Shown: piece after piece, positions 2,367-20,085 of the stretch
Layout: each line of letters begins with the position of its first letter
How positions within the stretch are numbered: the first letter of the stretch is position 1
Source: an uncultured Lachnospiraceae bacterium
GTDB lineage: Bacteria; Bacillota; Clostridia; Lachnospirales; Lachnospiraceae
NCBI GenBank assembly: GCA_934394615.1
Contig: CAKRRJ010000006.1
Location: forward strand, 1 to 46,524
DNA length: 46,524 bases
Reading direction: 5' to 3'
Translations under genes and position numbers: made by a program
Notes under the pieces: generated by a model
What the model saw: only the letters and a program-made list of their open reading frames with translations
Told to the model about the DNA's origin: nothing
Databases searched by the model: none

Positions 2367-3260
2367 ATGTATTGTGTAGATTTAAACAGCGATCTTGGAG
2401 AGAGCTTTGGACGTTATACACTCGGAATGGATGACAAGGTGATTCCGTTAATCACATCTGCAAATGTGGCATGCGGATTTCATGCATCCGATCCGGTTGT
2501 AATGAAAAAGACGATTGAGATGGCAAAGGAGGCAGGCATCCGTGTCGGAGCACATCCGGGATATCCGGATCTGATGGGATTCGGCCGTCGAAACATGAAT
2601 GTCTCTCCGGCGGAAGCGAAAGCCTACACCTTTTACCAGATTGGTGCTCTGGACGCATTCTGCAAGGCATCCGATGTGGAGATGCAGCATGTAAAACCGC
2701 ACGGCGCTTTCTATAATATGGCAGCAAAAGATTACAAACTCGCAAAAGGAATCTGTGAGGCAATTGCGGAGTACAATCCAAAGCTGATTCTGATGGCACT
2801 TGCGGGAAGTGAGATGATCCGTGCGGGACAGGATTGTGGACTGCGGACGGCATCTGAGGTGTTTGCGGATCGTGCCTACGAGGAAGACGGAACGCTTGTG
2901 GCCAGAACGAAAGAGGGCGCGATGATCACCGATGAGAATGAGGCGATTGCGCGCGTGATTCGCATGGTCAAAGAGCAGAAGGTTCAGGCGATTACCGGTG
3001 CAGAAGATGTGCACCAGAAACTGGCAGATCATAAGATTGACGGCTTTGTGCTGAATGAATCTCCGCAATGGGAGGAGGATAACCTTTCTGCCATCACACG
3101 GATTGGTGCTTCCTGCAATTATTTTGTCATCAGCAGGAACCGTCCCGATCTGAAAGCGGATCTGGATATTGCCATGCAGAAAATAGCGCATGATTTTTGC
3201 ACGATGTTTCCAGCGAAGTACTTTACAAATCGGAATGCCTATAATATAATGGCGAAATGA
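2367..3260 (+). pseudogene. pxpA: 5-oxoprolinase subunit A fused to a solute-binding fragment
   Basis: PxpA (LamB/YcsF family) starts at ATG 2367 behind GGGAGGAG. Residues 1-211 are an orthodox PxpA: VDLNSDLGESFGRY, ANVACGFHASDP, GAHPGYPDLMGFGRR, HVKPHGAFYN, EVFADRAYEEDGTLV. At VQAITG (residue 211, base ~2997) family likeness stops. The expected ending with its CVHGD motif is absent. The last ~86 residues (KIDGFVLNES, ISRNRPDLKADLDIAM, PAKYFTNRNAY) instead resemble the end of a family-3 periplasmic solute-binding domain of the kind found in sensor GGDEF/EAL proteins. The total of 297 residues exceeds the usual ~255. The partner subunits are broken or absent, so activity is unlikely. The frame itself is open, so a stable chimera may be made. 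Confidence 0.7.
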
Positions 3261-3335
3261 GTTGTTTTTTCTGGAAACGTTGAAGCACTGCGTTTATCTG
3301 GGCACCTGCGCAGCGCTGAGTGAGTGGTGCAACCG

Positions 3336-3393
3336 GCCAGGAGGCTTCTGTTGTTTGATTGGGTCAGACAATAGGGGCTTTCTGGCATTTTTT
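3336..3393 (+). terminator. Strong intrinsic terminator after the pxp remnants
   Basis: An 11-bp outer stem (GCCAGGAGGCT with GGCTTTCTGGC, some G-U pairs) encloses an inner 8-bp stem (TTGTTTGA with TCAGACAA). It is followed by A and six T. It separates the pxp remnants from the polysaccharide operon. A second small hairpin (3399-3415) with its own T-run follows directly, just before the ribosome site of the MotA-EAL gene. It may be a second terminator or a leader attenuator. Confidence 0.8.
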
Positions 3394-3455
3394 GGTTTTC
3401 CGGCTGAAAAGCGGAATTTTTTGTTATGAATAAAGATAAGGAAAGGTGAAATACC

Positions 3456-5018
3456 ATGCAAAGAAGCCTGATGACATTTGTAATAACAGTTCTCGCGGGC
3501 GGAGCAGTTCTGATCGCATACGCTCCGGACGTTTTATCCATGCTTTTTATCGCGATCATGGAGGCAATCCTGGTTGCTGGTGTGTTTTGCGGCGTGCTGC
3601 CGGTCATCCGTTATAATCAGGCACTGCAGCGCGGAGTATGGAATATTCAGCGCGCAACAGGAGTTCAGACCAGTTCTACCTGGTCCGCGGTTCTCGGATA
3701 TGAGAGCTTTTTCCAGCAGCAGACTCTGGACGACTTTTTTGATGAATACCGTGCCAAGGTGAAGACTCAGCAGTCGTCCGGACAGATTCTGTGCGATATC
3801 ACGGAATATATCAATGAAGATGAACTGGCACTGCACAGCTGGCAGAGTCTGGTCCGCCAGATTCCGGGCATGATGACGAGCCTTGGTATCCTCGGTACGT
3901 TCATCGGTCTTCTGATCGGTATCCGCGGCATTGGCTTCAGTACAGTCACGGATGCGCTTACCAGTGTCCAGACACTTCTCTCCGGTATTCAGGTGGCGTT
4001 CTATACTTCCATTGCCGGTGTGATTTTATCTCTTTTGTTCAACATTGTTTACGGGGTCGCATGGAATATGATGCTCCGTAATCTGGGCATGTTTACGGAT
4101 TCCTTCCATAAAAATGTGATTCCGTCCGTAGAAGAGCAGACCCTTTACCGGGAACGCAGGGAGTACAGCCGGATCGTGGATCTGTTAGAGCGTCTTCCGA
4201 AGATTCCGGAGTATTCTACATCCAACCCGGCATCCTCTGTCACAGGAGCGGAACACGAAAAGATCCTGATGCCGCAGATTCTGGCCGGATTACAGAACGG
4301 GGAATTTACGTTCCAGCTTCAGCCGAAGTTCGACATCAATACACGAAAGATCATCGGCGCGGAAGCACTGGTGCGCTGGAATCACGGGAAAATGGGCGTG
4401 ATGCTCCCATCGGTGTTTATTCCGGTTTTAGAGCAGAACGGATATATCACAAAGCTGGACCAGTACATATGGGAGTCCGTCTGCAGCACGATCCGCCAGT
4501 GGATTGATGCAGGAATGCGGCCGGTTCCGCTTTCCATCAATGTAACAAAAATGGACATCCTTGCTATGGATGTGGTGGAGTATTTCACAAACCTTGTAAA
4601 AAAATACCGTGTTCCGCCGCGTTATCTGGAAATTGAGATCGCAGAGACCGCGTATCTCAATGCCGCGCATTCTGTCATGGAAATCGAAGAACAGCTTCGC
4701 GCGGAAGGATTCCGCGTTGTCATCGATGGATTCGACGGAGATTTCATTGTATTAAAAGATATGGACAATATTTCCGCGGATGCGCTGAAACTGGATCTGC
4801 GCCGTTTTGCCGGAAAACAGAGCCCGGAGGCAATCGCGGAACTGTTTGCGCACGCGCGCAGGCGGAAGCTGAATCTGACAGCGGAGGGGATCGAGAGTAT
4901 GGAACAGCTTACGCTTCTGCGCAAGTGCGGGTGTTCGGAAGGACAGGGATTCCTGCTTTCCAAACCGATCACGGTACAGGAGTTTGAGGAGCTGACGAAC
5001 AAGGAGACGATGAAATGA
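3456..5018 (+). CDS. MotA/TolQ/ExbB-like channel fused to a degenerate EAL domain
   Basis: This is a 520-residue membrane protein. Residues 5-23 and 28-51 are membrane helices. The MotA/ExbB core follows, with helices near 137-157 (GTFIGLLIG) and 176-203 (AFYTSIAGVILSLLF), the latter keeping the Thr/Ser pattern of proton channels. Residues 268-515 form an EAL domain: EAL at 303-305, N362, the E392/E394/E397 region, K445, E478 and Q497. The usual DDFGTG loop reads DGFDGD at 424-429, so one of the paired metal-binding aspartates is lost. It probably binds c-di-GMP without cutting it. It heads the polysaccharide operon and overlaps the next gene by four bases (ATGA), so the pair is probably translationally coupled. 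The ribosome site is AAGGAAAGGTG. The fold calls are firm; the gating role is inference. Confidence 0.85.
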   Translation: MQRSLMTFVITVLAGGAVLIAYAPDVLSMLFIAIMEAILVAGVFCGVLPVIRYNQALQRGVWNIQRATGVQTSSTWSAVLGYESFFQQQTLDDFFDEYRAKVKTQQSSGQILCDITEYINEDELALHSWQSLVRQIPGMMTSLGILGTFIGLLIGIRGIGFSTVTDALTSVQTLLSGIQVAFYTSIAGVILSLLFNIVYGVAWNMMLRNLGMFTDSFHKNVIPSVEEQTLYRERREYSRIVDLLERLPKIPEYSTSNPASSVTGAEHEKILMPQILAGLQNGEFTFQLQPKFDINTRKIIGAEALVRWNHGKMGVMLPSVFIPVLEQNGYITKLDQYIWESVCSTIRQWIDAGMRPVPLSINVTKMDILAMDVVEYFTNLVKKYRVPPRYLEIEIAETAYLNAAHSVMEIEEQLRAEGFRVVIDGFDGDFIVLKDMDNISADALKLDLRRFAGKQSPEAIAELFAHARRRKLNLTAEGIESMEQLTLLRKCGCSEGQGFLLSKPITVQEFEELTNKETMK

Positions 5019-6709
5019 AGCCGAGAAAAAGGCAGAATGATGATGAATTGAATTTCTGGCAGCCTGCGACGGATATGTTCAGCGCACTGATGCTGGTATT
5101 GCTGCTTGTAATCCTGCTGCTGGCTCTTTATCTGGTCAACGTTCCGGATCATGATGGAATTGATGAAACTGGAAATGTGACGGCAACGCCATCGGATGCT
5201 GTTGGAGACGGCATTGGTGCCGCTATAAAGCGCCCAGAGACAAACAGCGGCGGCAATCCGGACGACAACGGCAATGGCGGAAGCGAACACGGCGAAGACG
5301 GCGGTGAGCAGGAATACGAAGGCAGCGGCGGCGAGGAAAAGCACGACGGAAGCAACGGAGGCGGCGGAGGCGGCTCTGGAACCGGACCAGGAACCGGACC
5401 GGGAGAGGGACTGAAATCGGCGGTGTATGTTGTTATGGTTGATGCGGAGACAGACCGGACCATCAAGGAACAGGGCGTTCAGTTTGAGCTGTACGGCGCG
5501 GACAATTCGCTGCAGGTACTGAATGTCTATTATCCGGAAAAGATTTCGTTCCGTTCCTACGAGACAACGGAACAGGGAACCTTCTACTTCCCGGAAAAAC
5601 TCTGGCAGGGAGAGTATATTGTACATGAGCTGACCGAACCGGCCGGATATGACGCGGCAGAAAACCAGTATTTTGACTTAAACAACATCTACGACTGGCC
5701 GGAGCCTTTTGTAGTCAAGGTTCCGCTGAATCCGTCCAGAAACATCATCCGGATCCAGATGAACGACGCGGAAACTGCACAGCCTGTGGAAGGCGGCACG
5801 TTTGAGGTCATCGCGGGCGAGGACATTATCACACAGGACGGCACGCTGCGCTACCATGCGGGACAGGTTGTAGGAACAATCGCCTGCGACGAAAAGGGCT
5901 ACGGTACCAGCGATGAGCTTTACCTCGGAAAGTACATTGTCCGGGAGAAAGATATTCCGGAGTATTACGTTGGTCAGGAGTCTGATCTGGACTGCAGCGT
6001 GGAAAAGAAAACCGAGGTGGAAGTGCCGTTAAATACGCTTACCTCTAAGCTCAGCCGCGTGACATTGAATCTGAAAGATGAGCTTTACAATACAAGACCG
6101 ATCGCCGGCGCGGTTTACCAGGTAACACCGGATCACGGCGTTTCCAGGGAGGTAACGACCGATGCTTCCGGACAGATCATTCTGGATCAGTTAGACAAAA
6201 ATACGACTTATACCATCACACAGACAGAAACTGTGGATGATTATGAACCGGATACCCAGGAGCATACCTTCAGCGTTGCGGCAGATGGAAGGATCAGTGG
6301 ACAGGATGAGCTGAAACTGGATCTGACAAACCGTATGATCCGTGTGGAGATCGGAGCGTCAAAGAATCCGTTAGGCCGTCAGAGTGCCGGAGTTGACATG
6401 CAGCTCTTCGATGCTTCCGGCAATGAGATTCAGGCATGGACAACCAGTACGGTGCCGGTTACCTTTACAAACTTGAAGTCTGGCAGCTATTATATCGTGA
6501 TGGATGGAAATACGCAGAAGAAATATCCGCTTCAGGTAAATGATCAGGCTGCAGTACAGAGCGTACTTGTCGGATCCGGACAGTATATGCGTTATATTCT
6601 TGCGGGAGCAGGTGTATTCGGCGTGATTATGGTCCTGGCTGTTCTGCTTACGGGTCTCTTTAAAAAGGAAAAAACAAAAAATAAGAAAGCGAAAAAAGGT
6701 GACGTATAA
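5015..6709 (+). CDS. MotB/TolR-like stator protein with Cna_B (SpaA-type) repeats
   Basis: This 564-residue protein begins with a basic head, then NFWQPATDMFSALMLVLLL. This is a MotB/TolR/ExbD-type anchor with a single aspartate (D20) at the mouth of the membrane helix, the position of the proton-binding residue in that family. Residues 45-133 are an acidic, Gly-rich linker (GGGGGGSGTGPGTGPG). Four beta-sandwich repeats of Cna_B/prealbumin type follow, at about 135-242, 243-342, 345-440 and 441-512 (for example VDAETDRTI...GVQFELYGA, GEYIVHELTEPAGYD). A second helix (525-549) and a Lys-rich tail inside the cell end the protein. There is no OmpA peptidoglycan-binding domain and no LPXTG signal. 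It overlaps the MotA-EAL gene by four bases and the next gene by one (TAATG). It is probably the stator partner of that channel, reaching into the cell wall. Confidence 0.75.
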   Translation: MKPRKRQNDDELNFWQPATDMFSALMLVLLLVILLLALYLVNVPDHDGIDETGNVTATPSDAVGDGIGAAIKRPETNSGGNPDDNGNGGSEHGEDGGEQEYEGSGGEEKHDGSNGGGGGGSGTGPGTGPGEGLKSAVYVVMVDAETDRTIKEQGVQFELYGADNSLQVLNVYYPEKISFRSYETTEQGTFYFPEKLWQGEYIVHELTEPAGYDAAENQYFDLNNIYDWPEPFVVKVPLNPSRNIIRIQMNDAETAQPVEGGTFEVIAGEDIITQDGTLRYHAGQVVGTIACDEKGYGTSDELYLGKYIVREKDIPEYYVGQESDLDCSVEKKTEVEVPLNTLTSKLSRVTLNLKDELYNTRPIAGAVYQVTPDHGVSREVTTDASGQIILDQLDKNTTYTITQTETVDDYEPDTQEHTFSVAADGRISGQDELKLDLTNRMIRVEIGASKNPLGRQSAGVDMQLFDASGNEIQAWTTSTVPVTFTNLKSGSYYIVMDGNTQKKYPLQVNDQAAVQSVLVGSGQYMRYILAGAGVFGVIMVLAVLLTGLFKKEKTKNKKAKKGDV

Positions 6710-8496
6710 TGCAAAGCAGTAGCGTTCAGATTCGTGTTAGTGATATGATTTTTGTGCTGAAAAAGCGCTGGAAGATGCTTCTGTCTCTCACCATGACAGG
6801 ACTCGTGTTTGGCCTGCTTCTGCTTGCGGTGACGTACATTCAGAATTCGCAGCAGAGTTATGTGGCAGGTGGTTCGTTTGCAATTTCAACGCGGAACGCG
6901 GAAGGTGTTTATGTGAACGGGGCACAGATTGCAAACAACAATGACTTTCATCTGGCCGAGGATATGGCAGATGCAGTGCGCTATGTGGTCAGCAGCGACC
7001 ATGTTCTCAATCAGGTGATTGCGGATCAGGGCCTTTTGGGCGTGACTCCGGAGGAGCTGCGCACAAAGCTCACTCTGACCCAGTACCAGGCAACGCAGAT
7101 CATGGAGATGCGTTTTACTTGGAATAATGCAGAGAACGCAGTCAATATCTGGCGTTCGATCGTAAATGTGGCCAGCAGTGCCATGCCGTCTACCCTGCAG
7201 ATTGGCCAGCTTGCCATCATCAATGAACCAAAGGCAGAGCAGGTAGGAACCAGCAGGGCAAGCAGGCTGCTCCCGGTAATTCTTTCTATGCTTGGTTTCT
7301 GCTGTGGAATCGGATTTGCCGTGATCGAGCTGATTATCCGCCCAACGCTGAACAACGCGAAAGACGCGGAAACCATGTTCGGACTGGAAACAATTGGTAT
7401 TATCCCGCGGGATGATGCCTATTTCCGGCACCATCAGAGATCCATTCTTGTCAGCGATGAGAACGAGCGTTCCGTTGTGCTGCAGAATTATTCAGCGGCA
7501 GCGTACATTCTGCGCAACCGCCTTGGAACCAAGGAGCAGCATCACTGTTTCTATGTGACAAGTTCCGCTGCGGGAGAGGGAAAATCGACAGTGGCAGCAA
7601 ATTTGGCCATTCAGCTTTCGGATATGGAGCACAAGACGCTGCTGATCGATTTCGACATGCGCAATCCGAGTCTTGGAACTTTATTTATGGAAAAGGTGGA
7701 TTATGCCCATTCCCTGAATGCGCTTTACCGGAATGAGGCGACTGAGGAAGATGCGATCACAACACTGACCGGTTATCTGGACCTTCTTCCGGCGGTGCTG
7801 GAGCATAACGCCATGGCAATGGACGGCACGATCACCGAACTGATCCAGCGCCTGCGTGAAAAATATGAGTACATCATTCTGGATTCTGCTCCGGTCGGTG
7901 AGGCATCTGAGACTTTAAGCTTAAACCGTGTGGCAAATACCGTTTTATTTGTGATCGCGTATGACAGCACGCCGCTTCCTGTGATTCAGAATTCTCTGGA
8001 AAAACTGGATAAATCCGGTATCCGCGTACTTGGCTGTGTGGTCAATGCAGCAGGAGAGGGCGGACGGAAAAACACCAGAAAAGACAATATGGCACCGGCG
8101 CATTCCGACTATGCGGGTTCTTCCGCAAAGCCGCCGAAAACACCGAAACCGCCAAAACCGAAAAAGACAAAAAAACGGAAAAAGCAGAATATGTCCCCGG
8201 CAGAAGAAACGCAGCGGGTGACTGAGGCACCGGCACCGCTTCTGGACCTGGATCCGGATCCTGTGCAGCCCGCATCACCGGCACCGCAGGCACCGGAACC
8301 GTCCAAGCAGAAACAGGCGGAAGAATCCTATGAAAACCACCGGGATGTCCTGTCTGAGCTGATGGCGGAAGAAACAGCCGGGGCGGAGAAAGAGTCCCCG
8401 CGTCTGTCAGACAGTTCCATTGAGGATCTGCTGCGGATGTTTGAGGATGACTCACAAAATGAAGGAACAAAAAATGAAGGAACTGGAGAGGAATAG
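6709..8496 (+). CDS. Wzz/Wzc-like BY-kinase for polysaccharide assembly, long tail
   Basis: This 595-residue chain-length and tyrosine-kinase protein is of the fused type. Helices at about 22-45 and 187-211 flank the extracellular Wzz region. The cytoplasmic kinase has Walker A SSAAGEGKST (285-294), Walker A' LLIDFDMRNP (311-320) and Walker B YIILDSAP (388-395). After residue ~450 comes an unusual ~145-residue tail. It is first Pro/Lys-rich (KPPKTPKPPKPKK), then acidic, ending in an amphipathic SIEDLLRMFEDD. BY-kinases normally end in a cluster of tyrosines for autophosphorylation; here only two tyrosines are in the tail. It probably controls polymer length with the ligase/polymerase at 9252-10571. 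No matching tyrosine phosphatase gene is in the window. Confidence 0.88.
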   Translation: MQSSSVQIRVSDMIFVLKKRWKMLLSLTMTGLVFGLLLLAVTYIQNSQQSYVAGGSFAISTRNAEGVYVNGAQIANNNDFHLAEDMADAVRYVVSSDHVLNQVIADQGLLGVTPEELRTKLTLTQYQATQIMEMRFTWNNAENAVNIWRSIVNVASSAMPSTLQIGQLAIINEPKAEQVGTSRASRLLPVILSMLGFCCGIGFAVIELIIRPTLNNAKDAETMFGLETIGIIPRDDAYFRHHQRSILVSDENERSVVLQNYSAAAYILRNRLGTKEQHHCFYVTSSAAGEGKSTVAANLAIQLSDMEHKTLLIDFDMRNPSLGTLFMEKVDYAHSLNALYRNEATEEDAITTLTGYLDLLPAVLEHNAMAMDGTITELIQRLREKYEYIILDSAPVGEASETLSLNRVANTVLFVIAYDSTPLPVIQNSLEKLDKSGIRVLGCVVNAAGEGGRKNTRKDNMAPAHSDYAGSSAKPPKTPKPPKPKKTKKRKKQNMSPAEETQRVTEAPAPLLDLDPDPVQPASPAPQAPEPSKQKQAEESYENHRDVLSELMAEETAGAEKESPRLSDSSIEDLLRMFEDDSQNEGTKNEGTGEE

Positions 8497-8501
8497 ATAA
8501 C

Positions 8502-9209
8502 GTGGAAACTCAGAATTTACTGGCGATCGCAATGATCTTTCTGCTGCTGGCCAGATGTTACTTTGCCACGCTGCGGGTATTCATGCAGCGTTCGGAGGTT
8601 CAGAACGCATTTCCGGCGGTAACGGTGATCCTTCTGGTTATTTATATTCTGGTGGGAGGCGTGCTTGCATTTATCGCTGTGCTGATAGGGGCGGAGCTGG
8701 TCCTGGTGACGCTGATCATGATGATCGCGCTCGGAACGCTGTGCCTGTCTGTTCTGTTTGTGGCACAGAATTTCCGCACCCTTCACCTGGGAAGCCTGGC
8801 ACTGCTGTTATGCTATCTTCTGGCAGTTGCGTACATTACCATGTTTTCCAGAGACAGTGCAGGAGACCACCGGATCTCCATGATCCGGACAGACCTGTTT
8901 GTGAGGGCAGCGCAGATGCATTCCGCGGAACCGCTGCGGCATGTATTTTTGAATATTGCCATGTTTCTTCCGGTGGGATTTCTGCTTCCGCTGGTACAGC
9001 CGGAAAAATTAAAGCCGCTCACCCATGTGCTCTTCCTCAGCCTCACGCTCAGCATCCTGATCGAGACGGTTCAGCTGGTGCTGCAGATCGGGCAGGCAGA
9101 CCTCACGGATGTGCTTGCCAATACACTCGGCGGGATCGTGGGTTATCTGGTCTGCCGTCTCTGTTTCCGGAGCGCGTTTTCTGAGGACGGTTCCGACCAG
9201 GACTTTTAG
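8502..9209 (+). CDS. VanZ-like membrane protein
   Basis: The start is GTG at 8502, with GGAGAGG upstream. The 235-residue protein has about seven membrane helices. The C-terminal half carries the VanZ signature: NIAMFLPVGFLLP, a SILIETVQLVLQIG segment and GQADLTDVLANTLGG. VanZ proteins affect glycopeptide sensitivity by an unclear route, and related domains are common in polysaccharide loci. Here it sits between the chain-length kinase and the ligase/polymerase, five bases after the former. This suggests a part in handling lipid-linked glycans rather than drug resistance. No van resistance genes are nearby. Confidence 0.8.
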   Translation: METQNLLAIAMIFLLLARCYFATLRVFMQRSEVQNAFPAVTVILLVIYILVGGVLAFIAVLIGAELVLVTLIMMIALGTLCLSVLFVAQNFRTLHLGSLALLLCYLLAVAYITMFSRDSAGDHRISMIRTDLFVRAAQMHSAEPLRHVFLNIAMFLPVGFLLPLVQPEKLKPLTHVLFLSLTLSILIETVQLVLQIGQADLTDVLANTLGGIVGYLVCRLCFRSAFSEDGSDQDF

Positions 9210-9251
9210 CAGCCGGATATGAAGATACAATGCAGGAAAGCAGGGATACCT

Positions 9252-10571
9252 ATGGAAAAAGCAGTGAAAAAAGCAGAATACGAGACAGGCAAAAATGCAG
9301 TCATTGACTTTTGGGTAGTCTGCTGCCTGGTGTGCCGTCTTGGATTTCCCGGAATCTTATCGGAGTACAGCGGCATGTTAACGCCGTTGTTTGATTATGG
9401 TTCTTCCCTGCTGCAGATCTGTCTCATGATGATCGCGAGCGGAGATACGATCGGGGAGATCCGGCTGCTGGACTGGAAGAAAAAATACACGGCGGTTTAT
9501 CTGATGCTTCTGTTTCTTGGAGTCCAGTCGGTTCTTGTTGCCAGCAATAAGACCGGGGCACTGACTGCCAGTATTCGTTTTTCTATCACGGCGCTGTTTG
9601 GATTGTGGCTGGCAGACCGCTATGAGACGAAACGGCTGTTTGAGATTATCAGTAGCGCTTTGGCGATTTTTGTCGCGATGAATCTTCTGCTGTTTTTTGT
9701 GTTTCGCGGCATTGGGTTTTATTATGACGAAGAGGGACGTTACATGTTCCGCGGTCTGCTGACCCGGAAGAATGCGATGGGAGAGGAACTGGCGTATTGT
9801 CTGGTTCTGCAGGTGGCTTTGTTTTGCATGAAGTGGAATGATGTGGAGCGGATCGAAAAGCGGTATCTGCTGCTTCTGGCTGCCCAGGTATTTCTGCTTC
9901 TGGAAACGCAGGCGACAGGAGCATTGTTTACTGCCCTGATCCCGTCGGTTTTTCTTCTTTTAAGGCAGTGGAACCGCTGGAAATTCCCGCGTGTTCCGTG
10001 GGGATATGTCTATATCATCGCTTCGGTTGCTTTTTTGATTGTTGCACTGACGGTTCTCCCGTTTTTTGCTCCCTTGTTCGAGATGCTTGGCAAGGATGCG
10101 ACGCTTTCCAATCGTACCTATCTTTGGGAGCAGGTAATCCCGTTTATGATGGACAGCCATACCTTCACCGGCTATGGTCTTCTGATGTTCTGGTACGATG
10201 AAACTGCGCTGCAGAATCTGCAGAACCGTTTCGACCGCAACAGCTGGTTCCGCGAGATGACATACGGTTCCCATAATACGCTGCTGGAAATGTGGCTGGA
10301 CACAGGGCTGATTGGCATTGCGGTCTTTTTCCTGGTACTTTTATACAGCTTCCGCCATGTGCGCCAGTTTCGCGAGGACCAGTATCAGGCCTGCTCCGCG
10401 TTTATGATGCCGCTGCTGATCCGCGGACTCACGGAGCGGTCCTTTACGAATGCGAATTATCTGACGCTGTTTTTGTTCGTCATGCTTGGAATCGCGTGTA
10501 CTGGAAATGTGATGGATCCGCCACGTTATCCGCGAAGACCGTTCCTGAACCGGGAAAGCGCGGAAACATAG
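9252..10571 (+). CDS. O-antigen ligase / Wzy-type polymerase family protein
   Basis: This is a polytopic protein of 439 residues with about eleven membrane helices. The Wzy_C/WaaL-type loop lies late in the chain: SNRTYLWEQVIPFM, then GYGLLMFW, SHNTLLEMWLDTGLIG, with the conserved His and Gly residues. It probably polymerises or transfers the lipid-linked repeat units made by the downstream glycosyltransferases. I prefer ATG 9252 because AGGAAAGCAGGGA precedes it; an in-frame ATG at 9219 would add eleven residues but has no clear ribosome site. Polymerase versus ligase cannot be told from sequence. Confidence 0.8.
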   Translation: MEKAVKKAEYETGKNAVIDFWVVCCLVCRLGFPGILSEYSGMLTPLFDYGSSLLQICLMMIASGDTIGEIRLLDWKKKYTAVYLMLLFLGVQSVLVASNKTGALTASIRFSITALFGLWLADRYETKRLFEIISSALAIFVAMNLLLFFVFRGIGFYYDEEGRYMFRGLLTRKNAMGEELAYCLVLQVALFCMKWNDVERIEKRYLLLLAAQVFLLLETQATGALFTALIPSVFLLLRQWNRWKFPRVPWGYVYIIASVAFLIVALTVLPFFAPLFEMLGKDATLSNRTYLWEQVIPFMMDSHTFTGYGLLMFWYDETALQNLQNRFDRNSWFREMTYGSHNTLLEMWLDTGLIGIAVFFLVLLYSFRHVRQFREDQYQACSAFMMPLLIRGLTERSFTNANYLTLFLFVMLGIACTGNVMDPPRYPRRPFLNRESAET

Positions 10572-10607
10572 AGAATCAGGAAGTTTGGAAAAGGAGTTTT
10601 ATTCATT

Positions 10608-11612
10608 ATGGAAGAAACAAAACAGCCAGTCCGGGTTGCCTACCTGGACGCGGTAAAAACAATTGCGCTTCTTCTCGTGTTTGCGCTTCATACGCAGAGA
10701 GAACCTGTTGTTACGCAGCCAGCCCATAATCCGGTCCTGTTTTATGCGGCCCGCTGCTGTATGCCACTGTTTTTCATGGTAAATGGCAGTCTGATCCTCA
10801 GAAAAGCCACTTTCCCGTTTTCCTATTACAAAAAGAAGTTAGGCGGGATTGCGCAGGCACTGGTGTTCAGCGGCCTGTTGATTGGTGTGTATGTAAAGAT
10901 TGTGCATCATTTCTCTGCATTCAAGGCGGGAAAAGAAATGCTGAAAGGGTTTCTTTCCTATACGCCGTATGCGTTTTTGTGGTTTTTTTACACATTTGCC
11001 ATGATCTATACGCTGCTGCTGGCTGTGTTTCCATGGATCAAGAAGCACATCTGCCTGGTGACAGGAAGTTTGCTGCTGGTTTGTCTGTGCGCTGCCCTGG
11101 CTTCGGATTATTCGATCGCGCATGGCGGATTTTTTATCCAGGACCGTGTGACACAGCGCCTTCGTCTCTGGACATGGCTGTTTTATTTCTGCCTTGGGTA
11201 TCTGCTCAGTACGGCGGACCTGAAAAAATGGAACGCGCAGGGAATCCGCTTTCTCGCGGTTGTGTTTACCATCGTGTGTGTCGGATGGCAGTACTGGCTG
11301 TGCTGGCGCGTGACCGGGCAGATCGAGTCCAACTACATGTATGACAGCCTTCCGGTCATGGTGTGGTCGGCCCTGGTATTCTTAAGCTTCCGGGTATCGC
11401 CTGGGATATCCGCAGCCCTCGCGCGTTTTGCTCCGTACAGCTACGGCGCGTTTTTACTGCATGGATTTCTGGTAGATGGTTTTCAGCTTCAGAGCGCGGT
11501 CCACGGTGCACCGGCATCCACGCTGGTATGGATCCTGCTGTCTGCCGTCTGTTGGACTGCGTCCTGGATGTTAAGCAAAGTGCCTGTGGTCAGCCGGTTT
11601 TTCCGGTATTAA
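10608..11612 (+). CDS. Acyltransferase family 3 membrane protein
   Basis: This 334-residue protein with about ten membrane helices starts after AAGGAG. The N-terminus has the family pattern YLDAVKTIALLLVFALHT, with the conserved His in the first helix, and CMPLFFMVNGSLIL in the second helix region. Such proteins move acetyl or other acyl groups onto sugars of surface polymers. Its place inside the polysaccharide operon suggests O-acylation of the repeat unit. The acyl donor and the target sugar cannot be read from the sequence. Confidence 0.85.
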   Translation: MEETKQPVRVAYLDAVKTIALLLVFALHTQREPVVTQPAHNPVLFYAARCCMPLFFMVNGSLILRKATFPFSYYKKKLGGIAQALVFSGLLIGVYVKIVHHFSAFKAGKEMLKGFLSYTPYAFLWFFYTFAMIYTLLLAVFPWIKKHICLVTGSLLLVCLCAALASDYSIAHGGFFIQDRVTQRLRLWTWLFYFCLGYLLSTADLKKWNAQGIRFLAVVFTIVCVGWQYWLCWRVTGQIESNYMYDSLPVMVWSALVFLSFRVSPGISAALARFAPYSYGAFLLHGFLVDGFQLQSAVHGAPASTLVWILLSAVCWTASWMLSKVPVVSRFFRY

Positions 11613-11636: not shown

Positions 11637-12479
11637 ATGGAACAACATCGTGTTACGGCTGTGATCACGACTTACCGCCGGAGCTGGAGCATGATCCTCC
11701 GGGCGGTGAACAGCATTCTGCAGCAGACGGTCCCGGTATATGAACTGCTGATCATAGATGACAATGGACTGGGGAGTCCGCTGCAGCAGGAGATTGAGCG
11801 GGAATGTGCGAAGATCAGCCAGATCCGCTATCTTGCGGCGGAGCACAACGGCGGTGTCGCGGCTGCCCGGAACCGGGCGATTGCCAGCGCGAAGGGCGAT
11901 ATTCTTGGCTATCTGGACGACGACGACGAATGGTGCCCGGATAAACTGGAAAAACTTCTTCCGCTTTTTGACCAGTCTTCGGATACCGGCCTGGTGTTCG
12001 GCACCGGCCATGTGATCAAGCACGATACCGGGAAAGAGCATTACAACTGGCAGTGGGAAGTGTTCAAACCGGAACCGGATTTTTCGGACATGCTCTATAC
12101 CGATTATGTGGGTTCTGCTTCCGCGCCGCTGATTCGTACGGAAGTCCTGCGAAAGACCGGAGGGTTTTTAACAGAAAACCAGCCAGCCGCGGAGGATTAT
12201 GAGTTATGGATCCGGATCGCGAAAGCGTACAGGCTGCGCGGGACACGGGATGTCGTATTCATCAAGCACGATGAGACGAGTGATCATGTCTCCGGAAGCC
12301 TGCGCCGGGTCGGAATGGGATTCCGGAATATTTACCGGGTCTACCGCAGTGATTACCGCACGCGCCCGAGGGCACGGACGGCAATTTTATGGAATATCTC
12401 CCGCACGGGTGTGCGGGGACTGGATGTGACAGTCATTCCCTATGTGTTTGCATGGCTGTGGAGCCGGATCAGAAAGTAA
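11637..12479 (+). CDS. Family 2 glycosyltransferase
   Basis: 280 residues with a GT-A fold: VTAVITTYRR at the start, LLIIDDNG, GGVAAARNRAIASAKGD, and the metal-binding acidic run YLDDDDEW near residue 97. The PAAEDYELWIRIAK segment holds the usual late acidic ED motif. It is a cytoplasmic, membrane-associated enzyme that adds a sugar from a nucleotide donor to the growing lipid-linked unit. The ribosome site AGGAGAGAGGTG is strong. The sugar is unknown. Confidence 0.88.
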   Translation: MEQHRVTAVITTYRRSWSMILRAVNSILQQTVPVYELLIIDDNGLGSPLQQEIERECAKISQIRYLAAEHNGGVAAARNRAIASAKGDILGYLDDDDEWCPDKLEKLLPLFDQSSDTGLVFGTGHVIKHDTGKEHYNWQWEVFKPEPDFSDMLYTDYVGSASAPLIRTEVLRKTGGFLTENQPAAEDYELWIRIAKAYRLRGTRDVVFIKHDETSDHVSGSLRRVGMGFRNIYRVYRSDYRTRPRARTAILWNISRTGVRGLDVTVIPYVFAWLWSRIRK

Positions 12480-12501
12480 AGGAACAAAGGAGGAATGCGG
12501 G

Positions 12502-14046
12502 ATGGAAAAAACGGAACGTCCAAAAAGCAAATATTTTCGTTTGATGCAGACCGTGGCAGTATCGGGCGGCGCGCTGGTCATCAATACGCTGATCACCCTT
12601 TTACTGGTTCCCATGATCACAGATACGCTTGGAAGCGATGCCTATGGCTTTGTAACATTGGGAAAAAATATAGCGCAGTATGCCATGATGATCACAGCGG
12701 CGTTAAATTCCTTCGCGGCCCGCTATATCGTGGTGGCTTATCATAAAAATGACCAGCGGGAAGCACGGATGTTTTTTACATCTACGTTTTACGGGGATCT
12801 GTTTCTCGGAACAGCCCTGTTCGCGGTTGCGGCAGGATGCACGTTCCAGCTGGAAAAACTGCTTGTCATTCCGGAAAAACTGGTTCTGGATGTACAGCTT
12901 TTATTTTTGTTTGTATTCCTGAACTTCTGGCTGGTCACGATCTCCACCGCGTTTTCCGCGTCCGCCCATATCAAAAACAAGCTCTATATTGCGGGAATCT
13001 TCAAAACCTTATCGTATGTCGGTGAGGCGGCAGTCCTGATCATCTGCTTCCGCTTTTTCCCGCCGCATGTATTTTATGTCGGACTGGGACTGGCTGTGGC
13101 AGCCTTTGTTACCGCAATGGGAAACTGGAGCATCTGCAGGCGCTATACACCAGAGCTGAAAGTGGAAGAGCGGTATTTCTCGTTTTGGGCGATCAGACAT
13201 CTGGTTGTGGATGGAGTCTGGACTTCCCTCAACTCTCTCGGCGATGCGTTAAACAGCGGTCTGGATCTTCTGATCTGCAACCTGCTGCTTTCCACAGCGG
13301 CCATGGGACAGCTCGCGGTCTCCAAGACCTTTTATTCCATGTTTGCCAGTGTGTTTGTCCTGGTGGGGCAGGCGTTTGAGCCGATGTACTTAAAAAGCTA
13401 CGCAACCGGAAAAAAAGAAGTGCTGCTGAGTGAGTTCCGCGTGGCAATGAAGCTGTCCGGCATGATCTCCAACATCGTGTTCGCCGGATTTGTGGCTCTG
13501 GGAATGGCATTTTACCGTTTGTGGCTCCCGCGGGCCGATGTTGCGCTGATCTACACCCTGACCGTGATTAACAATATGGTCACGATTCCGGGCGGGCCAA
13601 TGCAGCCCCTCTACTATATTTATGTGCTGACCCTGAAGAAAAAGATTCCGACTCTGATTACCATTGCCGGAGGCCTGGTGAATGTTCTGGGGATGTATCT
13701 GCTGATCCGTTATACCGGACTTGGCGTGTACGCAGTAGTCTGGACCACCGTTGGGGTTATGGCGGTGATCAACTTTGGAACGAATCCGCTCTATATGGCC
13801 CATGTCCTTCATCTGCCATGGTGGACATTTTATCCGGGAATTTTGAAAAATCTGGTTTCATGCGGTGTGCTCACGCTGGTGTTCCTGGGACTTGGCCGGC
13901 TGTACATGCCGGATTCCTGGATCACTCTGATCCTGTCAGCTCTGGTGCTTGCCGCGATCGGCGCGGTTCTTCATCTGTTTATTGTGTGCAGCCGGGAAGA
14001 CTGGGAACTGCTCCGAAAGAAACTGCCAAGGAGGTATTCTGTATGA
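12502..14046 (+). CDS. Wzx-type polysaccharide flippase (MATE/MOP superfamily)
   Basis: 514 residues and about 14 membrane helices typical of RfbX/Wzx flippases. The N-terminal segment with GALVINTLITLLLVPMI and DTLGSDAYGFVTLGKN matches the family's first two helices. It would move undecaprenyl-linked repeat units across the membrane for the polymerase. The start ATG 12502 sits behind AAAGGAGG; the frame is open further upstream, but there it overlaps the previous gene. The end overlaps the next start by four bases (ATGA). Confidence 0.85.
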   Translation: MEKTERPKSKYFRLMQTVAVSGGALVINTLITLLLVPMITDTLGSDAYGFVTLGKNIAQYAMMITAALNSFAARYIVVAYHKNDQREARMFFTSTFYGDLFLGTALFAVAAGCTFQLEKLLVIPEKLVLDVQLLFLFVFLNFWLVTISTAFSASAHIKNKLYIAGIFKTLSYVGEAAVLIICFRFFPPHVFYVGLGLAVAAFVTAMGNWSICRRYTPELKVEERYFSFWAIRHLVVDGVWTSLNSLGDALNSGLDLLICNLLLSTAAMGQLAVSKTFYSMFASVFVLVGQAFEPMYLKSYATGKKEVLLSEFRVAMKLSGMISNIVFAGFVALGMAFYRLWLPRADVALIYTLTVINNMVTIPGGPMQPLYYIYVLTLKKKIPTLITIAGGLVNVLGMYLLIRYTGLGVYAVVWTTVGVMAVINFGTNPLYMAHVLHLPWWTFYPGILKNLVSCGVLTLVFLGLGRLYMPDSWITLILSALVLAAIGAVLHLFIVCSREDWELLRKKLPRRYSV

Positions 14047-15566: not shown

Positions 15567-15595
15567 TCTATTATATACAACAAAGAGGGAACAGT

Positions 15596-16453
15596 ATGGA
15601 AAAAGCGTTTGTATCTGTCGTCATTCCAACTTACAACCGTGCGGCAACCATTGAAAAAGCAGTGCGGAGTGTGCTGGAGCAGACCTATGATACGCTGGAA
15701 GTGATCGTTGTGGACGATGGTTCCACGGACAACACCCGGCAGATCATAGAAGAAATCGGAGATCCGCGCCTGCGGTATCTCTGGCAGGAAAACAGCGGCG
15801 CCTGCGCAGCCAGAAATCATGGCGCAGAGCAGGCAAAAGGCGCGTATATCGCGTTTCACGACAGCGATGATATCTGGCATCCGGACAAACTGGAAAAGCA
15901 GATGAAGCTGCTGGAAAAGACAAAGGCAGATGTTGTCGTATGCAAGATGGCCATGTACCGTCCGAACGATACCATCGTTTATTATCCGAAACGGATCCGG
16001 GAGGGCAGGGTACCGTGTGGGGCCGATCTGTTCGGGATTGGCACGCAGACGATTGTGGCCCGTGCCAGGGTCCTGAAACAGGAACCATTTTTTACCGGAC
16101 TGCCGCGTTACCAGGATCTGGAGTGGATTTACCGTGTTGTCCAGAAATTTTCGGTTTATTTTCTGGATGAACCGCTGGTGGATTACCGGATCGGAGAGGA
16201 CTCGATCAGCAAAAGCCCGGAAAAAATGTTCCGCGCGCTCACGATCATGCGGGAACTTCATCCAGATCTTAAAATGAAATCTCCAGCACTGGCACTTCAT
16301 ATGGTCCGGGATCTGTTTTCCGGATGGAGGGAGATGCAGCGTAAGGCTCCTGCGCAGAGCAGGGATTATGTGAAGCTGATGCGGGCATACTATCCGGGGC
16401 TGGTGCGGTATCTTTGTGGAACGATAAGAATGAGTGGAAAAAGCGAAAAATAG
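15596..16453 (+). CDS. Family 2 glycosyltransferase
   Basis: 285 residues with a classical GT2 domain: VSVVIPTYNRAATIEKAVRS, VIVVDDGSTDNT, SGACAARNHGAEQAKG and the acidic motif FHDSDDIWHPDK near residue 92. A YQDLEWIYRV segment later fits the ED-type catalytic site. It probably adds one sugar to the repeat unit. It begins 29 bases after the asparagine-synthase-like gene, with an AGAGGGA ribosome site. The donor is unknown. Confidence 0.88.
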   Translation: MEKAFVSVVIPTYNRAATIEKAVRSVLEQTYDTLEVIVVDDGSTDNTRQIIEEIGDPRLRYLWQENSGACAARNHGAEQAKGAYIAFHDSDDIWHPDKLEKQMKLLEKTKADVVVCKMAMYRPNDTIVYYPKRIREGRVPCGADLFGIGTQTIVARARVLKQEPFFTGLPRYQDLEWIYRVVQKFSVYFLDEPLVDYRIGEDSISKSPEKMFRALTIMRELHPDLKMKSPALALHMVRDLFSGWREMQRKAPAQSRDYVKLMRAYYPGLVRYLCGTIRMSGKSEK

Positions 16454-16467
16454 CAGAGGGATTAATT

Positions 16468-17721
16468 ATGCAGCATATTTTTTTAGTTGGGGCAAAATCA
16501 CTGGGGACGTATGGGGGATATGAAACATTTGTTTACAAGCTGACAGAATACCATCAGAATCTTTCGGATGTGAAGTATCATGTGGCCTGCAAGGCCAACG
16601 GAGACGGATGCGTGGATGAGAGCAAACTGCCCGGTGTACGGGAAATTTCGGATACGGAGTTTGAATGCCATCGTGCGCATTGCTTTAAGATCCATGTACC
16701 GCAGATCGGTCCTGCGCAGGCGATCTACTACGATGTGGCGGCGCTCGAAGCATGCTGCAGGTACATAAAGAAACATCAGATCGAGCATCCGATCGTGTAT
16801 ATCATGGCATGCCGCATCGGACCGTTTATGCATCATTTTTATAAAAAGATCCATAAACTGGGCGGAGAGGTTTATTTAAATCCGGATGGACATGAATGGC
16901 TGCGCCAGAAGTGGGCACCGCCGATTCGGAAATACTGGAAACTGTCTGAGCGCCTGATGGTCCGCTATGCGGATCTGGTGGTCTGCGACAGCGTTCATAT
17001 TGAGGATTACATTTTGAAGGAATACGGAGCATACCATCCGAAAACCACGTATATCTCATACGGAGCGGAGATCAAGTCGTCGCCGTTATCCGATCAGGAC
17101 AGCTCCTACACGGGATTTCTGGAGAAGCATGGACTTTCCGCGGAAAATTATTACCTGGTTGTCTGCCGCCTTGTTCCGGAAAATAACTTTGAAACGATCA
17201 TCCGGGAGTTTATGCAGAGCAGGACCGAGAAGAAACTGGCGCTGATCACCAACTCAAACGGAAAATTCTTCCGGTATCTGAAGGAAACGCTGCAGTTTGA
17301 GAAAGATCCGCGGATCGTGTTTACCGGCGCGGTCTATCAGCCGGATCTTTTACAGAAGCTGCGGGAGCATGCGTATGCTTACCTGCATGGTCATGAGGTT
17401 GGCGGGACGAACCCGAGCCTTCTGGAAGGACTTGGCGCCACAAAGCTGAATCTGCTTCTGGACGTTTCCTTTAACCGGGAAGTCGGGCAGGATGCGGCGT
17501 TTTACTGGACCAAGGAACCGGGCAGTCTTGCGGCGTGCATCGAACAGGCGGAGACATTGTCGGAGGAAGCGCGGACTGAAATGGGAAGACGCGCGAAAGA
17601 GCGGATCCGCACCGCCTATTCCTGGCCGCAGATCGCGCGTCAGTATGAGATGATCTGGCAGAACCGGGAGACAGAGAGAGGGGAAGCACATGGGGAAAAA
17701 GTGTTTGATTGTTGCGGGTAA
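16468..17721 (+). CDS. Rhamnosyltransferase-like glycosyltransferase (DUF1972/Cps2T type)
   Basis: 417 residues. The N-terminus IFLVGAKSLGTYGGYETF and the later NPDGHEWLRQKW and DLVVCDSVHIEDYI segments are the marks of the DUF1972 GT4 group that includes the pneumococcal beta-1,4-rhamnosyltransferase Cps2T. The GT4 C-terminal donor-binding region is present (EVGGTNPSLLEGLGATKLN). The start is taken at ATG 16468 after AGAGGG; the open frame further upstream overlaps the previous gene. A rhamnose substrate is inferred from the family only. No dTDP-rhamnose genes are in the window. Confidence 0.75.
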   Translation: MQHIFLVGAKSLGTYGGYETFVYKLTEYHQNLSDVKYHVACKANGDGCVDESKLPGVREISDTEFECHRAHCFKIHVPQIGPAQAIYYDVAALEACCRYIKKHQIEHPIVYIMACRIGPFMHHFYKKIHKLGGEVYLNPDGHEWLRQKWAPPIRKYWKLSERLMVRYADLVVCDSVHIEDYILKEYGAYHPKTTYISYGAEIKSSPLSDQDSSYTGFLEKHGLSAENYYLVVCRLVPENNFETIIREFMQSRTEKKLALITNSNGKFFRYLKETLQFEKDPRIVFTGAVYQPDLLQKLREHAYAYLHGHEVGGTNPSLLEGLGATKLNLLLDVSFNREVGQDAAFYWTKEPGSLAACIEQAETLSEEARTEMGRRAKERIRTAYSWPQIARQYEMIWQNRETERGEAHGEKVFDCCG

Positions 17722-18721
17722 TCCGGTCCCCGAAGACTGGGAATTTCAGCGCGGCATGGCTGATACAACGGAGCAGGACTGGCAGGTTATGCGCTGCTGC
17801 ATCAATGAGTATAACGGAATCAAAAAATACACGCGGTATCTAAAGTATGTGTTTTTCCCGGTTTATCTGACGGTTGTCCGGAACCGCTACAGAAAGATCA
17901 TCGCCTGGGAGCAGTTTTTTGGACTGGTCATGGCATGTTACCTGCGGCTGCTCCACGTCCGGACCTGCCCGGAACTGGACATTATGACCTTTATCTACCG
18001 TCCGAAAAAAGGACTGGTGGGCCGGATCTATTACCGGTTTGTCCGCTATGCGGTGACATCGAAGTACATTCATAAGATCTACGTGTTCGGAACGAGCGAG
18101 ATCGACCACTATGTGTCTTTGTTTGGCGTACCCAAAGAACGATTCGCGGCAGAAATTCTTGGAATTGCCGATGTGGCAGAGGAAGTGCTTGCGATGCCGC
18201 AGAAGCGCACGGACCGCTTTTACATTGCGCCGGGCCGGAGCAACCGCGATTACGATTTCCTGCGCTCGGCATGGGAAACAGAGCAGGACAGCCTATGCAT
18301 CGTGTGCGATGTAGAGACAGCGGAAGATTCCCCACGGATCCATTACGAAAAGAACCTGCACGGAAACGAGTATCTGCGGCTGCTTGCGGATTCCTATGCG
18401 GTTCTTGTGGTGTTAAAATCGGAAAACTTCTCATCCGGCCAGCTGGTGCTGCTTCAGGCGGCAATGCTCGGAAAGCCGGTCATTGTGACAAAGAATGATA
18501 CGGTGTATGATTACCTGACCGATGGGGAGACTGGTTATATCATCGGAAAAGACCCGGAGGAGCTGCACCAGGCTCTGGAAAAATTAAAAGATCCGGAAAA
18601 CTACAAGCAGATCAGCGCGAATGCGCGTCGGAAATTTGAAGAATGCTTCAGCCTGTATGAGCTTGGATGCCGGGTAGGACGACAGCAGGGAGACTGTTTA
18701 TTTAAACCCCTCAAAAATTGA
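17690..18721 (+). CDS. Glycosyltransferase, GT4-like
   Basis: 343 residues, overlapping the previous gene by 32 bases with a strong GAGAGAGGGG ribosome site. The C-terminal half has a GT-B donor site: VLKSENFSSGQLVLLQAAMLG, KPVIVTKNDTVYDYL and DGETGYII, the pattern of family 4 enzymes. The N-terminal half is diverged and carries a hydrophobic, basic stretch (LKYVFFPVYLTVVRNRYRK) that may touch the membrane. It is the last gene of the polysaccharide operon. A CCCTCAA/TTGAGGG hairpin covers its stop codon but lacks a T-run. Confidence 0.7.
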   Translation: MGKKCLIVAGNPVPEDWEFQRGMADTTEQDWQVMRCCINEYNGIKKYTRYLKYVFFPVYLTVVRNRYRKIIAWEQFFGLVMACYLRLLHVRTCPELDIMTFIYRPKKGLVGRIYYRFVRYAVTSKYIHKIYVFGTSEIDHYVSLFGVPKERFAAEILGIADVAEEVLAMPQKRTDRFYIAPGRSNRDYDFLRSAWETEQDSLCIVCDVETAEDSPRIHYEKNLHGNEYLRLLADSYAVLVVLKSENFSSGQLVLLQAAMLGKPVIVTKNDTVYDYLTDGETGYIIGKDPEELHQALEKLKDPENYKQISANARRKFEECFSLYELGCRVGRQQGDCLFKPLKN

Positions 18722-18779
18722 GGGTAGATAGGAAAAGAAAAGTAGGATATAATGATTCCTGTTTGCAGAGAAGCGCAGC

Positions 18780-18808
18780 TTGACAACGCTCATTATATGT
18801 ACTAAAAT
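18780..18808 (+). promoter_or_regulatory. Promoter for the LysR-type gene
   Basis: TTGACA (18780-18785) and TAAAAT (18803-18808) are separated by 17 bases, close to the sigma-A consensus. Transcription would start near 18815, leaving a leader of about 115 bases before the LysR start. That leader contains a terminator-like hairpin at 18869-18902. Confidence 0.65.
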
Positions 18809-18868
18809 AAAACAAGTTCGTGATAGAAAAAACAAAGGCAGACAAATTCAGATACACAGAGTGCAAAG

Positions 18869-18902
18869 AGGCTGGGATCCTGAGAACGGGAACAGCCTTT
18901 TT
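18869..18902 (+). terminator. Terminator or leader attenuator before the LysR gene
   Basis: AGGCTG pairs with CAGCCT across a partly paired interior, followed by TTTTTG. It lies between the LysR promoter and the LysR start codon. It therefore could end transcripts from the polysaccharide operon, end a short leader RNA, or attenuate the regulator gene itself. Confidence 0.6.
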
Positions 18903-18928
18903 GCGCATCATCTGCAGGGAGGGATCAT

Positions 18929-19840: not shown

Positions 19841-19871
19841 ACGATATATACGAAAGAAAATAAAGTGCGAT

Positions 19872-19912
19872 GGGCAATTTTGGGGGATATTTCCCCGGAT
19901 TGCTCTTTTTTT
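19872..19912 (+). terminator. Terminator of the LysR gene
   Basis: GGGCAAT pairs with ATTGCTC around an inner GGGGA/TCCCC stem, followed by seven T. This is a well-formed rho-independent terminator that separates the regulator from the transporter operon. Confidence 0.85.
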
Positions 19913-19949
19913 CTAAAATTAATCACGAATGTGTATAAGTTTATATGTT

Positions 19950-19973
19950 TTATTCGCTTTTTATTATGAATAA
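19950..19973. promoter_or_regulatory. Possible LysR operator
   Basis: An inverted repeat TTATTC-N12-GAATAA fits the T-N11-A type of LysR binding sites. It lies about 15 bases upstream of the putative -35 box of the transporter operon. The region is AT-rich, so chance occurrence is possible. Confidence 0.4.
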
Positions 19974-19987
19974 ATAATAATTCTATA

Positions 19988-20017
19988 TTGGACATAGTCA
20001 GAAAATTTTGTTAAGAT
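19988..20017 (+). promoter_or_regulatory. Putative promoter of the peptide transporter operon
   Basis: TTGGAC (19988-19993) and TAAGAT (20012-20017) are 18 bases apart. Both boxes are imperfect, as expected for an activator-dependent promoter. The start codon at 20086 would follow a leader of about 60 bases. Confidence 0.45.
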
Positions 20018-20085
20018 ATTCTCAATAATACAACATGTGTTTTATTAAAACACGTGGGGAAAAAGGTCTGGAGGGATTAAAGAAG

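Follow-up and report, generated by a model that had tools for sequence, protein, structure and literature searches.

The subject of this study is a pair of overlapping genes, here called A and B, in a stretch of 46,524 nucleotides from an uncultured Lachnospiraceae bacterium (assembly GCA_934394615.1, contig CAKRRJ010000006.1, positions 1 to 46,524 of the forward strand), to which we refer as the window. A carries a MotA/ExbB-type channel with a C-terminal EAL domain, B carries a membrane helix followed by adhesin-like domains, and the pair stands at the start of a polysaccharide operon. We propose, giving the idea about an even chance, that A and B make up a 5:2-type motor driven by ions, which is controlled by cyclic diguanosine monophosphate (c-di-GMP) at the protein level and, in some lineages, at the RNA level, and which acts on a Wzz co-polymerase. 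The pair and the region before it contain the following features.

3222..3250, + strand: promoter-like site TTTACA-17-TATAAT (11 of 12 consensus positions, a consensus match only; one site against a mean of 0.4 in shuffled sequences)
3264..3347, + strand: c-di-GMP-II riboswitch aptamer, RF01786 (73.4 bits against a gathering score of 53.5, E-value 9e-15, full-length, 1-84 of 84)
3338..3384, + strand: terminator-like hairpin of 20 pairs, from a terminator scan, its 5' arm overlapping the 3' strand of aptamer helix P1
3456..5018, + strand: gene A, 520 amino acids, ZorA-like MotA_ExbB channel with C-terminal EAL
4284..4967, + strand: degenerate EAL domain of A, residues 277-504 (Pfam, alignments)
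5015..6709, + strand: gene B, 564 amino acids, ZorB-like N-terminal helix, Gly-rich linker, prealbumin/SpaA-type domains and C-terminal hydrophobic helix
5057..5137, + strand: N-terminal membrane helix of B, residues 15-41, Asp20 codon at 5072-5074 (AlphaFold2, ZorB alignment)
5414..6571, + strand: beta domains of B, residues 134-519 (Pfam, AlphaFold2 model)
6578..6697, + strand: helix at the C-terminal end of B, residues 522-561, hydrophobic and with a basic tail (AlphaFold2 model)

A preliminary description, made from the sequence alone, had read the first gene as a MotA/ExbB channel joined to an EAL domain, and the Pfam scan agrees at exactly 3456-5018: residues 90-201 match MotA_ExbB (PF01618; E 4e-7, 30.2 bits against a cut-off of 22.9) and residues 277-504 match EAL (E 4e-48), while no GGDEF domain was found in A by Pfam. 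Its account of the second gene, namely a four-base overlap, a lone Asp at position 20, a Gly-rich linker, beta domains, a second helix and no OmpA domain, was borne out by Pfam and an AlphaFold2 model. The two reading frames share the bases ATGA, and the Pfam scan of B gave a SpaA prealbumin-like match over three stretches (E 6e-30) and no OmpA match. In the single-chain model (predicted local distance difference test score 80) a helix at 15-41 is followed by a low-confidence linker at 46-131, beta strands at 137-519 and a helix at 522-561. The beta region appears, on reading the model, to consist of four domains; this reading alone located no Lys at the usual first-strand place, and we make no claim as to isopeptide bonds. 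PF28082 is precomputed for proteins of this family, and our own Pfam scan of the window proteins did not show it. A hydrophobic stretch was present in the last 60 residues of B in 38/38 complete copies, and it is probably a second membrane helix.

At E <= 0.001, 749 database proteins matched residues 1-262 of A, and 754 among the 7993 candidates scored matched B, so that the pair is no chance occurrence; the best 120 of each set are listed. When one genome per species was scanned, 31 loci came to light, of which 29 have an A with EAL, one (L030) has an A without EAL, and one (L031) is a distant ZorA/ZorB-OmpA pair. With nine loci added (L063, L092-L098 and L102) and L031 left out, the system counts 39 loci apart from that of the window.

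Homology of A and B to ion-driven motors

When a profile of A residues 1-262 was compared with PDB sequences, the best six matches were all ZorA chains (8vvn at E 3e-14, the 8qy entries from 7e-11, 8vvi at 2e-6); the match ranked seventh, to a designed TPR protein (7e-4), was judged to be chance. Residues 1-45 of B gave the ZorB chains of 8vvn (E 9e-5), 8vvi (2e-4) and 8qyd (0.002) as the top three, the next match standing at 0.15, and hhalign of B N-termini against ZorB-like N-termini from the relatives' loci returned a probability of 97.6. Counted along the alignments, Asp20 of B falls on residue 24 of 8vvn ZorB and on residue 21 of 8vvi ZorB. In ZorB, Asp24 of type I proteins and Asp21 of type II proteins are reported to lie against a ring of Ser/Thr residues in ZorA, and defence depends crucially on D24 (PMC11890865). 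Asp20 is conserved as D in 119/120 alignment rows (window included) and in 39/39 loci. In the channel of A, Thr184 is found in 117/118 rows and Ser185 in 118/118; T141, T148, T184 and S185 are conserved and align with ZorA in a sequence alignment, and by homology the Asp of B may pack against them.

These matches uphold the earlier view of a stator-type channel and axle. Two observations had been named in advance as speaking against it, genes that lie apart and loss of D20, and neither was seen at any of the 39 loci: B follows A in 39/39, and its frame opens at most 73 bases past the A stop. It is well supported, by homology, that A and B are a channel/axle pair of the ZorAB/MotAB kind. They would thus belong to the superfamily of 5:2 ion-driven motors (MotAB/TolQR/ExbBD/ZorAB), in which the assembly and the ion flow of this pair are expected by analogy.

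The closest homologues found for both channel and axle helix are those of ZorAB (8VVN, 8VVI, 8QYD), which also share the aligned Asp, the channel Thr/Ser and the adjacent genes. In place of the long cytoplasmic extension of ZorA, A has its EAL domain, and the peptidoglycan-binding domain is replaced in B by SpaA-type domains and by a further hydrophobic helix. Since ZorA and ZorB are the nearest named relatives, we considered whether the pair might be a Zorya-type anti-phage system that stands beside polysaccharide genes by chance, and this we regard as highly improbable. NCBIfam and PADLOC do name ZorA for A, and ZorB weakly for B residues 1-40, but A falls below every NCBIfam ZorA cut-off listed (57.3 bits at best, against 100) and B has SpaA domains rather than an OmpA-like one. 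Moreover, the constant partner is a Wzz/kinase protein, and neither ZorC/ZorD nor ZorE was found among 10 neighbour proteins at E <= 0.001, where the sole match to a defence candidate was a weak one to PDC-M28B (E 4e-4) on the Wzz protein. A Zorya assignment was rejected on these three counts of ZorA score, OmpA-like domain and effectors.

With MotAB and the generic ion transporters (GIT) the pair shares the MotA_ExbB superfamily and the A-B operon. A flagellar MotAB stator was rejected, since FliG_C was matched in 0/22 genomes of relatives (4/14 controls). Extra domains on the A subunit of non-flagellar GIT proteins are reported in PMC12505986, the main text of which returned no occurrence of EAL, c-di-GMP, polysaccharide or SpaA in a term search; a term search of passages of PMC9389320 likewise gave no mention of EAL, c-di-GMP or polysaccharide. 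Our literature searches, preprints not covered, found no description of the A/B pair, and one match, PMC11800159, was to its reference list only.

A predicted c-di-GMP receptor and its riboswitches

Loop 6 of the EAL domain reads DGFDGDFIV in A, as against DDFGTGYSS in the EAL domains of, for example, MorA and BifA. The second metal-ligand Asp is replaced by Gly in 117/118 rows (window included) and by Gly or Ser in 38/38 EAL-bearing loci. Both Asp residues of the loop are metal-binding, and the loop is needed for dimerisation and for binding of Mg and c-di-GMP, as stated in PMC7290235. The ligand residues E303, R307, N362, D424, K445 and Q497 are retained in all 38 of these loci, and E394 (or Asp) and E477 are mostly kept in the 118-row alignment. 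Since the ligand residues are kept and a catalytic metal ligand is lost, the EAL domain of A is probably a c-di-GMP receptor, hydrolysis being unlikely and binding plausible as judged from these residues.

The retained residues, E303, R307, N362, E394 or Asp, D424, K445, E477 and Q497, might also speak for a membrane-tethered phosphodiesterase that lowers c-di-GMP locally and for which the channel is only a scaffold. This we hold to be very improbable, as the second metal Asp has gone almost everywhere, the whole of loop 6 is rewritten, and E477 too is lost in two loci (Asn in L063, Ser in L098). An active EAL phosphodiesterase was set aside because A lacks the loop 6 pattern DDFG(T/A)GYSS with both metal-binding Asp residues.

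A structure search with A matched rows spanning residues 260-520 only, all of them EAL domains, and LapD and FimX were among them. Like LapD and FimX, A combines a lost catalytic loop with kept pocket residues, and would couple c-di-GMP, if it binds as predicted, to an envelope process; unlike them, its EAL domain is fused to an ion-channel subunit and there is no GGDEF domain. LapD itself has a degenerate EAL domain that binds c-di-GMP with a loop 6 likewise not conserved (PMC3032553). It could accordingly be argued that A is an inside-out receptor of the LapD type, in which c-di-GMP on the EAL ring reshapes A-B and thereby the outer domains of B without sustained ion flow or rotation. We think this unlikely, because Asp20 and the channel Thr/Ser are nearly invariant, which a mere signalling helix does not need, and because the EAL-less locus L030 still has both.

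In line with a c-di-GMP input, GGDEF was matched in 21/22 genomes with the system, at 2 to 51 per genome. In the window, the protein encoded at 32428-33309 is of the GGDEF type (RIGGDEF motif by reading) and may be a source of c-di-GMP encoded on the contig of the motor itself.

Upstream of A, 108 nucleotides 5' of the gene, lies the c-di-GMP-II aptamer, which is the sole Rfam match in the window at the gathering score and whose identity is well supported. The fold of 3264-3460 gave a z of -4.2. The hairpin and the aptamer would together make an expression platform: since P1 and the terminator are mutually exclusive, ligand binding should let transcription through, as in an ON switch. Class II c-di-GMP riboswitches of C. 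difficile are described in PMC11477304 as transcriptional ON switches, one exception apart. A c-di-GMP input had been suggested in the preliminary description, and the degenerate EAL, for which binding is predicted, and the riboswitches are both in its favour; the degenerate active site and the class II riboswitch upstream of A had themselves escaped it.

In three further loci (L095, L096 and L097) a c-di-GMP-I aptamer stands 56-139 bases before A instead of class II, and a hairpin with a T run is predicted to start inside its 3' end. These three are close relatives, so they probably represent one event; each of their genomes holds three class I matches, one of which, in G424, is below the cut-off. 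Class I aptamers were also observed at L098 and L102, separated from A by one or two genes (TetR-like by reading in L098; a small open reading frame and a VanZ-like gene in L102). RF01051 was matched in 11/30 genomes and 0/14 controls; it occurs in 10/10 genomes reached via the genus or family of G020, where it lies near the motor operon in 5, and in 1/20 of the others. RF01786 was found in 0/22 genomes (21 with the system, plus G022) and also in 0/14 controls, which makes that count uninformative. As in known c-di-GMP riboswitches, full-length Rfam matches here overlap terminator hairpins; what differs is that they precede a motor-plus-polysaccharide operon. The presence of two unrelated riboswitch classes before the same gene is hard to explain by chance. 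A riboswitch common to all members was considered and rejected, most other loci having none, and no c-di-GMP riboswitch was found at L092-L094. At L001, positions 3119-3302 before A resemble the Clostridiales-1 RNA (E 4e-4; at 35.6 bits the match does not reach the gathering score of 48).

The polysaccharide operon and a possible mechanism

Directly downstream of B, the window continues with the following genes.

6709..8496, + strand: Wzz-like chain-length protein fused to a bacterial tyrosine kinase (BY-kinase)-like ATPase
8502..9209, + strand: VanZ-like membrane protein (Pfam, E 3e-21)
9219..10571, + strand: Wzy/O-antigen ligase-like polymerase (Wzy_C, E 2e-16)
10608..11612, + strand: acyltransferase (Acyl_transf_3, Pfam)
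11637..12479, + strand: family 2 glycosyltransferase (Pfam)
12442..14046, + strand: Wzx-like flippase by reading of the translation (0 Pfam families)

Wzz-like, Wzy-like and glycosyltransferase genes thus lie in one run, as in a Wzy-dependent polysaccharide operon, the Wzx-like gene being assigned by reading only. This agrees with the tie to polysaccharide genes that had been put forward earlier. The earlier expectation that the pair would always sit beside Wzz and Wzy genes was confirmed for Wzz: a Wzz/BY-kinase-like gene adjoins B in 38/38 loci reaching past B, three of these genes being cut by a contig end and L008, whose contig ends inside B, falling outside the count. For Wzy it must be relaxed to "usually", as tblastn over L001-L030 placed Wzy in 23/30 and VanZ after the Wzz/kinase gene also in 23/30, several contigs being cut. 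The EAL-less locus L030 has an A-B-Wzz cassette and no recognisable polysaccharide gene among the ten neighbours scanned (two without a Pfam match). From this cassette, A, B and the Wzz/kinase gene look like the core of the system.

The operon resembles a Wzy-type capsule or exopolysaccharide operon with Wzz/BY-kinase in its Wzz-kinase-like, Wzy-like, glycosyltransferase and acyltransferase genes, and departs from it in starting with a motor pair and in the tail of the kinase. A C-terminal Tyr cluster is a feature of BY-kinases (tyrosine autokinases), and a cluster of this kind (a 12-residue stretch with 3 Tyr within the last 150 residues) was absent from 28/28 complete Wzz/kinase proteins and from that of the window. 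In many of these tails an RN-V/L-MDDL-like motif, possibly for docking, precedes an ALLxMG-like stretch, and an extra hydrophobic C-terminal segment was seen by reading in the Wzz/kinase protein of 12 loci. In L018 the sugar genes at 15595-20747 are nearer to those of the window than are those of other loci (by tblastn, 684 bits for the Wzx-like gene, 397 for Wzy and 363 for the acyltransferase); its A is only 57% identical to that of the window, which suggests exchange of the sugar cassette.

On the reading that we favour, a pentamer of A would surround a dimer of B, in an arrangement closest to ZorAB, and the ion path, as judged from homology, would run between Asp20 in the helix of B and the ring of Thr/Ser in A. 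The pentamer would hold a ring of catalytically degenerate EAL receptors on the cytoplasmic face, and c-di-GMP on this ring may start, stop or couple the motor; in the lineage of the window and some others it might also turn the operon on through the riboswitch. B has no recognisable peptidoglycan-binding domain. Since it lacks such an anchor and has a second hydrophobic helix, its beta-domain arm and that helix may be what holds the axle, in which case the A pentamer with its five EAL domains would be the part that moves. Its work would be done on the Wzz/kinase protein, a partner we infer from the constant gene neighbourhood, and the motor could act on the assembly or the release of polysaccharide chains. 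What has been observed is the gene order, the homology, the conservation of residues and the riboswitch matches; assembly, ion flow, c-di-GMP binding, the sense in which the switch acts and the work of the motor are predicted.

Several observations weigh against this proposal. EAL-less relatives exist, which implies that c-di-GMP sensing is not essential to the A/B pair. Loop 6, which aids binding of Mg and c-di-GMP in active enzymes by the account cited above (PMC7290235), is lost in A, and binding of c-di-GMP by its EAL domain is therefore not a given. L001-L031 have no c-di-GMP riboswitch at the gathering score (the L026 contig starts inside A, and that of L007 about 0.5 kb before it), so RNA control is to be seen as a feature of some lineages. 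Of the 22 genomes with the system, G010 (locus L014) has no GGDEF match, and all three kinase-motif patterns are present in only 13/28 complete Wzz/kinase neighbours. The MotA part of A found no partner in the structure search, an absence that is uninformative.

The preliminary description had placed the moving part outside the cell: a c-di-GMP-gated motor would turn or strain an extracellular rod formed by B, which would drag, export or anchor polysaccharide beyond the membrane. The beta domains of B, which look like Gram-positive pilins and adhesins and have many conserved positions, are in keeping with such a rod, as is its place in one operon with Wzy-like and glycosyltransferase genes. 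We nevertheless consider it unlikely, since the probable second membrane helix, kept in every complete copy of B, would hinder free rotation; given that helix, movement could equally lie with the cytoplasmic EAL ring, which would then act on the Wzz/kinase protein. As a whole, the interpretation in that description is partly supported.

The job of stator-type motors outside flagella is often unknown, above all in Firmicutes. For such a motor, the family described here supplies a likely signal in c-di-GMP, a constant neighbour in the Wzz/kinase protein and, in some lineages, a genetic switch, and this makes its job directly testable. If the proposal is true, an ion motor can power the assembly of polysaccharide in bacteria with a single membrane, and a motor can be gated by c-di-GMP bound to its rotor. 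In its fullest form, which we put forward tentatively and would not call probable, a rotary ion motor switched by c-di-GMP at the EAL ring, and in some lineages also by a riboswitch, would mechanically drive or time Wzz-dependent polysaccharide assembly in these bacteria; it would be the first to belong to a capsule or exopolysaccharide machine and, among 5:2 motors, the first to have a receptor for a second messenger built in.

Distribution and history of the family

The system was found in uncultured gut and rumen Clostridia. The titles of the loci name Ruminococcaceae, Oscillospiraceae, Christensenellaceae, Clostridiales, Eubacteriales or Clostridia, and all 31 of the first scan come from metagenome-assembled or uncultured genomes. 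IspG of the window (named by reading) shares 79% identity with its counterpart in G020, 77% with the one in the Fusicatenibacter genome of L031 and 71% with the one in the Blautia genome of L001, the latter two genomes being metagenome-assembled; these values suggest Lachnospiraceae. Among the whole genomes sampled, the occurrence is patchy: with the centre genome counted, 9/64 genomes in the genus of G020 have the system, and strong matches number 2/397 in its family, where a third, weaker match at 1e-32 is not shown to be the system; the order of G013 gave 2 strong matches in 396 genomes.

In a maximum-likelihood tree built by a quick method from 60 rows of the channel part, all EAL-bearing rows fall in one clade with a support of 95 in the Shimodaira-Hasegawa-like approximate likelihood ratio test, obtained without bootstrap and under a long-branch warning, the outgroup not lying on one side of a branch. 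The clade contains 30 labelled rows and two database rows, and 13 EAL-less rows, some short ones among the database rows being possible fragments, branch outside it. Since the EAL-less rows lie outside, the EAL domain was probably added once, by a single fusion to an older channel. For the same reason the EAL-less members offer a natural comparison, and L030 already has B and Wzz alongside; it is the one locus in which both were seen beside an EAL-less A. Directly 5' of its cassette, at 9228-9854, L030 encodes a response regulator with a LuxR-type DNA-binding domain, perhaps a substitute input.

Two kinds of more distant pair were also observed. At L031 (9638-14306) a ZorA-like protein and a ZorB with an OmpA domain are immediately followed by an FtsW/RodA-type protein, possibly a motor beside cell-wall synthesis. 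A second distant ZorA/ZorB-like pair was observed in L062, L064-L079 and L081 (for example L062, oriented 8079-11166), and such a second distant match is present in 14/22 genomes with the main system (two of them weak), two of which were read. In the L062-type pair, A has a long cytoplasmic tail and B, by reading, a helix of the pattern W-I/T-S-Y/F-S-D, a coiled coil and an OmpA-like end, and behind the pair there is often a one-helix protein of some 160-175 amino acids.

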